A DNA stretch of 44,506 nucleotides from an uncultured bacterium (GTDB lineage Bacteria > Bacillota_I > Bacilli_A > Acholeplasmatales > Anaeroplasmataceae), in NCBI GenBank assembly GCA_949293265.1, contig CASFCK010000011.1, positions 1 to 44,506 on the forward strand. Reading direction: 5' to 3'. The notes below the pieces were generated by a model. That model was not told the origin of the DNA and did not search any database. It saw only the letters and a program-made list of their open reading frames with translations. Below are positions 18,716 through 43,968 of this stretch, in pieces (within the stretch, counting starts at the first letter, position 1; each line of letters opens with the position of its first letter). Position numbers and translations under genes: made by a program.

Positions 18716-19133
18716 AAGATCTAATGAAGAAATTAATAATTTTATAAAAGTATCAATAGAAAATGAATTTTATGAATTATTAACAGAAGAAGAATTTAAT
18801 AAAATAAATAATCTTTATAAATTTATGAAAATTAGAAATAATTTTTATGATAGAAAAAGAAATAAAGTAGTATGTTCTTTAATTAAAGGTTATTTATCTA
18901 ATGAAAATAGTTATAAATTTTCTTTAAATTGGTTAAAGAAAGAATTATTTTGTACAAATTCTAAAACTTTATTAGATGTTGTTAAAAATAATCCAAAGTT
19001 ATTAAAAATTAAAGCAGAATATGATCATAAACTTTTAATGGATAGAAATAAATTACTAAATTCTTTACAAAAATATGTAAATTTAGGAGAAAATGTGCAT
19101 GAAGAAGGATTGGAAGAAGTTAATCAAGAATGA
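18708..19133 (+). CDS. Hypothetical replication-region protein
   Basis: 141 residues; ATG 18708 chosen for AAAGGAG upstream (the frame also has a TTG at 18699). Basic and helical (MGRRSNEEINNF...), with no recognised motif. Its position between polymerase and primase-helicase genes, with overlaps on both sides, suggests a replication accessory such as a loader or primase partner, but this is inference. Confidence 0.55.
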   Translation: MGRRSNEEINNFIKVSIENEFYELLTEEEFNKINNLYKFMKIRNNFYDRKRNKVVCSLIKGYLSNENSYKFSLNWLKKELFCTNSKTLLDVVKNNPKLLKIKAEYDHKLLMDRNKLLNSLQKYVNLGENVHEEGLEEVNQE

Positions 19134-28298: not shown

Positions 28299-28420
28299 CT
28301 AAAACCTCAATAAAAAAAAAAACGATTAACATTATTTATATTATAAATAAAATTAATCGCTTTGTCAAGAAAACTAATCAAAGGTATAATGTAACTCACC
28401 AACAATTATATATTACATAA
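28299..28420 (-). promoter_or_regulatory. Intergenic control region of internal-protein operon
   Basis: This 122-nt gap contains the consensus promoter (separate entry), a 7-bp dyad CGATTAA/TTAATCG (28323-28329/28353-28359) centred on the -10 box, and an 11-base T run (on the - strand) right after the dyad. In read-through mRNA the dyad plus T run could act as an intrinsic terminator. As DNA, the dyad could be an operator. Confidence 0.6.
28340..28368 (-). promoter_or_regulatory. Perfect sigma-70-type promoter, leftward
   Basis: On the - strand TTGACA (28368-28363), a 17-nt spacer and TATAAT (28345-28340): all twelve consensus positions and the ideal spacing. It would start transcription near 28333, giving a short leader before the internal virion genes at 28298 to 20353. 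Confidence 0.85.
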
Positions 28421-28642
28421 TTATTTAGTATTATTAATAGTTTTTTGCACTTTATCCACAGCTTTTTTAGTGATATTATTTTTATGAATTTCTTGTAATT
28501 TTTTCATAAATTCATCATCAGCTGTAGTTTTTGTTTTCTTTACAATAAAACTACCAATATAAAGTAAAATACTTACACCAATAATACCAACAACTGAATA
28601 AAGTTTTTCTAAATTTTCAGCATCAAGTAAAAAATCAAACAT
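28421..28642 (-). CDS. Holin-like single-span membrane protein
   Basis: 73 codons with GGAGAAAT upstream. One transmembrane helix (about residues 16-34, VVGIIGVSILLYIGSFIV) is followed by a long charged helix rich in Lys. It overlaps the endolysin gene by 8 nt. Location right after the muralytic gene supports a lysis role (holin or antiholin), but the topology is not diagnostic. Confidence 0.55.
   Translation of the reverse strand: MFDFLLDAENLEKLYSVVGIIGVSILLYIGSFIVKKTKTTADDEFMKKLQEIHKNNITKKAVDKVQKTINNTK
28452..28460 (+). other. DnaA box
   Basis: A perfect TTATCCACA on the + strand inside the 3' part of the holin-like gene. Its role is doubtful. Confidence 0.3.
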
Positions 28643-29090
28643 CTAATTTCTCCTTTTTATTAATGAATGCTTCAACAGTTCCTTTACCTAGATAAGTATT
28701 ATAATATTTTTTCCAATAATTTGCAATATCTTTTATATCATTTGGTACTGGTTCTTTTATTCTTAAATAAAATACACGACATATAAAAATTTGATAAGCT
28801 AAATTATACATTAAATTTTGTTCTAATGTTAATTTTTTAATATATAATAAATTATGTAATTCTTTTAAATTTTCTCTATATTTTATATAATTATTTTGAA
28901 TATCTTTTGCAGTATTTGGTTCTATTTGAAATATTCCACATGCAGGGCCATTAATCTGTTTAATATATTTACCACATTCTGATTCAACACAAGCAGTTCC
29001 AACTATTAAATCAATAACATTTTCAGATTTTTGAAAATTACATAAAGTAAATATATCATCTATTGCAGATCTTAATTGTTTTACTATCAT
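28635..29090 (-). CDS. Endolysin: SLT/lysozyme-like muramidase
   Basis: 151 codons; starts by ATGA overlap with the upstream gene. VGTACVESECGKYIKQINGPA then CGIFQIEPNTAKDI is the phage family with catalytic Glu (residue about 36) and G-x-FQIEP-x-T motif, related to lysozyme-like transglycosylases. No signal peptide is present, so a holin is needed for release. Flanked by membrane proteins on both sides, it forms the lysis cassette. Confidence 0.75.
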   Translation of the reverse strand: MIVKQLRSAIDDIFTLCNFQKSENVIDLIVGTACVESECGKYIKQINGPACGIFQIEPNTAKDIQNNYIKYRENLKELHNLLYIKKLTLEQNLMYNLAYQIFICRVFYLRIKEPVPNDIKDIANYWKKYYNTYLGKGTVEAFINKKEKLDV

Positions 29091-29407
29091 TGTATTCCAC
29101 CATTTATGAAGATTTTAAATATAAATTCAAAAATTACAGCTAAAATTGTAAAATAAGCTAATGCTTTTGTTAATAATCTATCATGTTTTTCAACTTTTTG
29201 ATAAATTCCATCAATATTATTTGTACCAAATATATAATTTTCTAATTCATCAATACGTTTTTTATTTTCCATACTTTGTGATGAATGTTCACTAATAATT
29301 TTTTCTATATTTGCTAATTTATCATTAAGAATTAATAATCTTTCATCAATTCTTATCAATAATTCATTATATTTAATAGAACTATTATTACTTTGTTGTG
29401 TTGTCAT
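29087..29407 (-). CDS. Coiled-coil protein with C-terminal membrane anchor (holin or spanin-like)
   Basis: 106 residues; ATG 29407 is chosen because GGAG lies at 29417-29414 (an upstream in-frame ATG would overlap that site). Residues about 15-60 form a charged coiled coil, and residues about 85-103 (AYFTILAVIFEFIFKIFI) a single transmembrane helix near the C-terminus. First gene of the lysis cassette. The start codon lies inside the 3' arm of a 16-bp inverted repeat, a likely control of translation. Confidence 0.65.
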   Translation of the reverse strand: MTTQQSNNSSIKYNELLIRIDERLLILNDKLANIEKIISEHSSQSMENKKRIDELENYIFGTNNIDGIYQKVEKHDRLLTKALAYFTILAVIFEFIFKIFINGGIQ

Positions 29408-29446
29408 TATAATCTCCATAAACTATTTTAATTATAATGACAACAC
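29398..29446 (-). promoter_or_regulatory. 16-bp inverted repeat over lysis start codon
   Basis: Positions 29398-29413 and 29431-29446 are perfectly complementary (16 bp) with a 17-nt loop. In - strand mRNA the loop ends with the GGAG, and the 3' arm contains the ATG (29407-29405) and the first codons. A transcript coming from upstream would fold and bury the start codon. The -10 box of the adjacent promoter lies in the 5' arm, so mRNA started there would lack this arm. Confidence 0.75.
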
Positions 29447-29460
29447 TTTAATTATGTCAA
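29431..29460 (-). promoter_or_regulatory. Consensus promoter of lysis cassette, leftward
   Basis: On the - strand TTGACA (29460-29455), an 18-nt spacer and TATAAT (29436-29431). All twelve bases match consensus. Expected start near 29424, giving about 17 nt of leader with GGAG. It lies in a short gap right after the stop of the gene at 29466. Confidence 0.8.
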
Positions 29461-29465
29461 GTTAT

Positions 29466-29687
29466 TTATAACATTTTTGAACTAAACTTAGTTCTATAAT
29501 AAGAAGATTTAGATAAATTTTTAATAACTTCTGAAATATCTTTCATAACATCAGCATACATACTAACAGTATTCAAAGATATTTCAACATTTTCATCTGC
29601 TCTTGCTCCTTTTTCAAGTTTCTGTAAAATCATACGAGAACCTTGAATTAATGAATGTTTTAATTCACAGTATTCAGCATCTGTCAT
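29466..29687 (-). CDS. Hypothetical helical protein
   Basis: 73 codons with GGAGAAA upstream. Helical, charged, no membrane segment; MTDAEYCELKHSLIQGSRMI. Coupled to the preceding gene by ATGA overlap. Possible lysis-associated or minor virion protein. Confidence 0.6.
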   Translation of the reverse strand: MTDAEYCELKHSLIQGSRMILQKLEKGARADENVEISLNTVSMYADVMKDISEVIKNLSKSSYYRTKFSSKML

Positions 29688-30007
29688 TCATTTTCTCCAT
29701 ATTGTTTTAATTTGGAGAAAAAGTTTAGTATATCTCCTTCACTAATTTTATAAGATGTACCTAATGCTGGAATTATATTAGAAGTAATTATAGGAATTAA
29801 ATCTCTAGAATATTTTTCTAAATTATCTATATCAATTTTACCATTTTTGGAGATTATAATAGGTAAAAAATCAGGTAATTTTGTTGAAATAATCATATTA
29901 ATTCCAAGTTTATTTACACCATTAGTAAAATTTAATGGTAATTTACTAAATAATTCATTAATTGTTTCATCAAGTGCAACAATAAAATTATTTGTAGTAA
30001 TATACAT
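29684..30007 (-). CDS. Hypothetical protein
   Basis: 107 codons with AAGGAG upstream. Hydrophobic strands (NFIVALDETI, NMIISTKLPDFLPIIIS) and a helical C-terminus; no clear transmembrane segment or signal peptide. Not recognised. Confidence 0.6.
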   Translation of the reverse strand: MYITTNNFIVALDETINELFSKLPLNFTNGVNKLGINMIISTKLPDFLPIIISKNGKIDIDNLEKYSRDLIPIITSNIIPALGTSYKISEGDILNFFSKLKQYGENE

Positions 30008-30772: not shown

Positions 30773-31066
30773 TTAAATGTCTGTAGGAAAGTATTGAAAA
30801 ATGAAAGAATCTAAATTGTCAAGTAATATTTTTAATGAATTTTTGTATTCTTTCATAATATAATCATGAGATTTATTTAATTTATACTCTATTTCTTTAA
30901 AATTAAGAGTTTTGTTATTTTGTGGAATAAAATAAGAAATTAAAATTTGTTTTTGATTTGGTGAAATGGGTATATGATTAAGGAAGCAAATAAAAGATAA
31001 AGGATTAACATATACCCATTTCATAATTAATCTCTTAATCCATTCCAACAATGGATCATTCATCAT
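30773..31066 (-). CDS. Sigma-region-4-like HTH protein
   Basis: 97 codons with GGAGAAT upstream. Residues about 33-90 (ISPNQKQILISYF ... NFKEIEYKLNKSHDYIMKEYKNSLKILLDNL) follow the layout of sigma factor region 4: lead helix, then E-I-x-x-K-L-x-K-S helix-turn-helix and a terminal helix with K-x-L. No region 2 is present. It may act as a late transcription regulator, or on host RNA polymerase. The match is by eye only. Confidence 0.5.
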   Translation of the reverse strand: MMNDPLLEWIKRLIMKWVYVNPLSFICFLNHIPISPNQKQILISYFIPQNNKTLNFKEIEYKLNKSHDYIMKEYKNSLKILLDNLDSFIFQYFPTDI

Positions 31067-36525: not shown

Positions 36526-36575
36526 TGAGTGTGCAATAATCTAAGGAGAACCTAAAAATAATTATTGCACACTCA
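36526..36575 (-). promoter_or_regulatory. 15-bp hairpin with anti-Shine-Dalgarno loop
   Basis: TGAGTGTGCAATAAT (36526-36540) and its exact complement at 36561-36575 enclose a 20-nt loop. It begins 9 nt after the stop of the head protein gene. On the - strand the loop carries CTCCTT (36547-36542), complementary to the AAGGAG (36522-36517) of the next gene. It may lower translation of the tail gene, terminate or protect the capsid-side mRNA. Confidence 0.7.
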
Positions 36576-43907: not shown

Positions 43908-43968
43908 CCGGACTAAAATGAAATTGAAAACAAAAATACTTTACAAATAAATATAAATAAGTCAATAA

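Follow-up and report, generated by a model that had tools for sequence, protein, structure and literature searches.

Does a hairpin that covers a phage lysis gene's start codon, with a promoter nested in one of its arms, time lysis in the manner of T4 gene e, or does it serve another end? The locus that raises this question lies in a window of 44,506 bases, the whole stretch of DNA analysed here, which constitutes contig C11 of a 1.59-Mb draft genome. Its gene content follows the layout of a tailed-phage genome: the plus strand carries replication genes (Sak4-like, helicase, DNA polymerase and primase), the minus strand those for terminase, portal, capsid and tail, and the G+C content is ~19–28%; the window is a gut-type bacterial virus. 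Annotated phage records contained no near match (capsid at most ~30% identical), the holin drew no match either, genome scans at the level of family, order, class and phylum returned only the window's own genome, and a GTDB-wide scan with the endolysin returned distant endolysins only. The same small set of contigs came back whether scans used the holin, the endolysin, the capsid or the upstream proteins. Rfam yielded no match, and viral contigs contained no exact copy of the hairpin arms. One relative, IMG/VR contig 3300012973_000033 (L015), shares the gene order of the window, with 75% identity in the upstream protein, 51% in the membrane protein and 69% in the endolysin.

The inverted repeat (29398-29413 and 29431-29446) consists of two 16-nt arms, 100% complementary to each other, around a 17-nt loop, confirming the perfect repeat of the initial annotation; it covers the start of the first cassette gene and not, as had been stated, the span of that gene. 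The full-consensus promoter described with it is also present: P1 lies on the minus strand and reads TTGACA-N18-TATAAT (-35 at 29460-29455, -10 at 29436-29431), and these coordinates put the -10 box within the 5′ arm. From the position of the -10 box, transcription is predicted to start at ~29424, and the GGAG in the loop sits 6 nt ahead of the ATG at 29407 (Table 1). An ATG further upstream, at 29419, was dropped as a candidate start because it is not conserved in L015, which makes 29407 the likelier start codon. A role for the P1 hairpin as a minus-strand terminator was likewise rejected, because no T run follows the 3′ arm. The stop codon of the upstream gene lies at such a distance from the 5′ arm that, by a footprint argument, a ribosome terminating there should leave the hairpin intact rather than melt it.

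Table 1. Coordinates of the features of the lysis cassette and its two nested promoters in the window.
Feature	Position	Strand	Remarks
Upstream 73-aa gene	29466..29687	-	Stop codon 19 nt ahead of the 5′ arm; 18 nt in L015
-35 hexamer TTGACA of P1	29455..29460	-	Conserved in L015 at 18960-18965
Hairpin 5′ arm GTGTTGTCATTATAAT	29431..29446	-	Holds -10 box TATAAT (29436-29431)
Hairpin loop, 17 nt	29414..29430	-	Predicted transcription start (~29424) and Shine-Dalgarno GGAG (29417-29414)
Hairpin 3′ arm ATTATAATGACAACAC	29398..29413	-	Holds start codon ATG (29407-29405)
106-aa membrane protein	29087..29407	-	Hydrophobic segment 83-101 in the C-terminal part; N-terminal part helical and charged
151-aa lytic-transglycosylase-like endolysin	28635..29090	-	Pfam SLT E 0.0014, below curated cut-off
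73-aa third cassette gene	28421..28642	-	One N-terminal hydrophobic segment; overlaps endolysin gene
P2 TTGACA-N17-TATAAT (28368-28340) nested in hairpin, then T run	28315..28368	-	z -5.1

From its position and make-up we infer that the 106-aa protein is a holin or XhlA-like; it matched none of the curated holin families, PF10779 (XhlA) included, and its L015 homologue gave E 0.039 and 14.6 bits against PF10779, short of the cut-off of 34.7. The 151-aa protein carries the Glu-Ser ... Gly-Phe-Gln pattern of SLT lysozymes, and its AlphaFold model (pLDDT 95) found lytic transglycosylases such as MltE as its top PDB matches, all weak (best E 0.06, TM 0.48). A promoter-like site, TTAACA-N18-TATAAT, was observed within the endolysin gene (28832-28803, minus strand), and a full-consensus TTGACA-N18-TATAAT occupies the corresponding position in L015, L018 and L013; the site could reflect coding constraint or serve the third cassette gene as an internal promoter. 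By eye, a hairpin-like stretch was also noted between the cassette and P2 (~28420-28385, minus strand) in the window, L015 and L019, with GGTG conserved in its loop, TACCTTT behind it and stems that differ among them.

The initial annotation held that the start codon sits in the stem on mRNA read from upstream, and that mRNA started locally lacks the 5′ arm and leaves the GGAG and ATG free. Folding both transcripts predicts this behaviour, masked in the former and open in the latter. Read-through RNA folds at -23.5 kcal/mol (z -4.4, a value reached by 0 of 200 shuffles) with an unpaired probability of 0.0 for the AUG, which is predicted to be fully paired whether the RNA starts at 29470 or at 29700. 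The predicted cost of opening the Shine-Dalgarno-AUG region in the window is 14.3-14.8 kcal/mol on read-through RNA versus about 1-2.5 kcal/mol on RNAs starting at 29421-29426, and the corresponding predictions for L015 are 10.0 kcal/mol versus 2.2-3.0 kcal/mol. Of all 51 gene starts in the window, none is as strongly masked as 29407 (15.4 vs 8.4 for the next), although 2 of 400 random ATGs on the same strand reach at least 13.5.

L015 is the one relative that carries the P1 element, and in it the structure is kept by paired changes. It retains TTGACA-N18-TATGAT and GGAG at unchanged distance, together with the hairpin (z -5.1), whose loop is 8 nt longer than in the window (25 nt vs 17 nt). 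Twelve of the 16 pairs are unchanged; of the other four, one shows a compensatory double change (U-A to G-C), two become G-U pairs (C-G to U-G and A-U to G-U) and one is broken, while an outer A.A mismatch is replaced by an extra G-C pair. The paired changes that were to be looked for in relatives are thus found with the promoter kept, and the contrary kind of change, which breaks pairing beside an intact promoter, affects one pair and leaves 15 of 16, a mostly favourable outcome. Simulated substitution with an equal number of changes (five) kept at least 15 of 16 pairs in 4-9% of trials (0.04-0.09). A second contig, 3300028833_000274 (L001/L013/L019), has a capsid 85% and an endolysin 58% identical to those of the window, and its holin-like gene is a different one (L013/L019), where neither a hairpin nor a promoter scoring >9 of 12 is present. 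The device is therefore dispensable, and the element appears to travel with the window-type membrane gene. The L018/L058 contig begins within the holin gene and is therefore uninformative on P1.

No other repeat in the window is as long, but length alone is modest evidence, since 10 of 300 dinucleotide-shuffled copies of the whole window also contained an inverted repeat of at least 16 bp (loop up to 40); the argument for the hairpin is carried by its place and conservation. The two full-consensus promoters of the window, P1 and P2, compare with 0.13 expected, two being reached in 1 of 100 shuffles, and for the repeat to fall on both a perfect promoter and a start codon is judged much rarer than the repeat by itself. 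An AT-rich genome of 22% G+C could yield TATAAT-like arms in a functionless repeat, and a 16-bp repeat does occur somewhere in 3% of shuffled windows, but chance is the least probable of the explanations considered here, given the placement on start codon and promoter, the first rank in masking and the compensatory change with which L015 retains the repeat. The perfect symmetry in the window and the overlap with the -10 box of P1 would also suit a DNA operator for a dimeric regulator. We regard this as improbable: the centre-to-centre distance shifts by 8 bp in L015, a poor fit to an operator of fixed spacing, two of the L015 changes suit G-U pairs and break the DNA symmetry, and no further copy of the arm exceeds chance in the window, where a search allowing 3 mismatches gave 6 hits, the two arms included, against 2.6 expected. 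The pair-preserving changes and the longer loop in L015 argue instead for pairing of a putative RNA stem. Such a stem, long, uninterrupted and drifting in identity while its pairing is kept, might be a site for RNase III or other processing, or a stabiliser of the 5′ end of the lysis mRNA. This is less probable still, as 16-17 bp is short for RNase III, a cut in the stem would split GGAG from AUG or ruin the start, and the nested promoter would be left unexplained.

The explanation we consider probable is that the element acts in cis to insulate the lysis cassette at the level of translation. Polymerase reading through from the structural genes would produce RNA with both arms, on which the hairpin would bury the AUG of the holin-like membrane gene; because the endolysin ATG overlaps the stop codon of that gene (ATGA), endolysin translation would probably be lowered too. 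RNA begun at P1 would escape masking because the whole 5′ arm is absent, and with GGAG and AUG accessible it would be translated, so that the dose of lysis proteins would be set by P1 and not by the amount of structural mRNA. The cassette would be closed by a terminator hairpin housing P2, at which P2 RNA, without the 5′ arm, would not terminate. It is from sequence, predicted folds and conservation (P1 in one relative, P2 in two) that we infer promoter use, start sites, the translation block and holin identity in this model. The initial annotation had instead proposed a temporal switch as in T4 gene e, with P1 silent early and on late and the hairpin blocking early lysis. The anatomy does equal that of T4 e, soc and I-TevI (PMC3014915, PMC2988022), and a late factor acting on P1 is conceivable. 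However, P1 matched a host-type consensus and not a phage late promoter; this consensus is threefold enriched in the host genome (30 matches vs 9 in the reversed control), so host RNA polymerase should manage P1 from the start. The proteins scanned, which were part of the protein set, included none recognisable as a phage RNA polymerase or sigma factor. The same-strand upstream genes (terminase, portal, capsid and tail) are late by convention, judged from gene content, so the read-through RNA is presumably late rather than early. Given a P1 sequence with no late signature and a structural upstream transcript, we prefer the insulator and consider the temporal switch unlikely. Of the T4 gene e logic, masking and escape find support (in the folds, the outlying start and L015), whereas late-promoter timing and the prevention of early lysis find none in the sequence.

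The insulator reading extends to P2, the sole other full-consensus promoter in the window, which lies ~1 kb downstream of P1. Its TTGACA, hairpin and T run are all retained in L015/L018 and L019, where a C-G pair has become U-A and the inner stems differ, and the -10 box is weaker in L015 (TAAAGT). The P2 hairpin looks like a terminator that ends the cassette, with its nested promoter starting the next unit. We tentatively suggest that this phage group may use host-type promoters in hairpins as compact insulators: P1 would block translation, P2 would end read-through RNA, and the RNA of each nested promoter would escape because its 5′ arm is absent, the late genes thus being split into independent units without phage-specific sigma factors.

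Several other hairpins were observed in the window. A 15-bp perfect hairpin (36526-36575, minus strand) precedes a 218-aa late gene that starts at ATG 36509. The hairpin loop, GGTTCTCCT, could form a pseudoknot with the AGGAG ribosome site downstream, to which it is complementary; this layout recurs in L015 (11306), L013 (11971) and probably L014 (~5058) with stems entirely different in sequence, a strong paired change. Ahead of the terminase small subunit, a 13-bp hairpin followed by a T-rich run (43907-43876, minus strand) is preceded by a promoter-like TTGACT-N16-TAAAGT at 43965, and the L015 and L013 leaders likewise carry a terminator-like hairpin; it could be an attenuator or antitermination point of the late operon, or the end of a small RNA. 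A 15-bp perfect repeat (30962-31023) inside a 97-aa gene (30773-31066) has a shorter, differently placed counterpart in L015 and is possibly due to chance.

The P1 hairpin is real, well placed and conserved, and the logic of masking and escape is already known from T4; what is new is the form, with a host-type nested promoter and a paired terminator version. If the model is true, the T4 lysozyme logic also operates in unrelated uncultured phages using ordinary host promoters, and any strongly transcribed operon could therefore have a dangerous gene shielded from read-through in this way. The pairing of a translational with a terminator version suggests a general design that can be searched for in other phages.

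Comparable start-site hairpins are known from T4 gene e, with late promoters in the region of the 5′ arm, and also from T4 soc, 49, I-TevI and segB and from Aeh1 mobE (PMC3014915, PMC2988022). In T4 gene e the long early RNA is masked and the late-promoter RNA is not, masking cutting translation ~100-fold (PMC3014915), and soc, I-TevI and others follow the same logic (PMC2988022). The window resembles T4 gene e in that a hairpin is predicted to hide the Shine-Dalgarno sequence and/or the AUG on read-through RNA, a promoter is so positioned that its own RNA, from the predicted start site, would lack the 5′ arm, a lysis gene is masked and the element is retained among relatives. The two phages are unrelated, and they differ in the promoter (host sigma-70 type here, a gp55-dependent late promoter in T4), in the read-through RNA (presumably late structural mRNA here, early in T4) and in the masked gene (a holin-like gene preceding the endolysin here, lysozyme in T4). 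In IS10/Tn10 and similar insertion sequences, the inverted repeats at the ends fold back on read-through mRNA. There, as at P1, a dangerous gene is shielded from outside transcription while RNA from an internal promoter escapes; the window element differs in being without a transposon, its repeat not being a transposon end.
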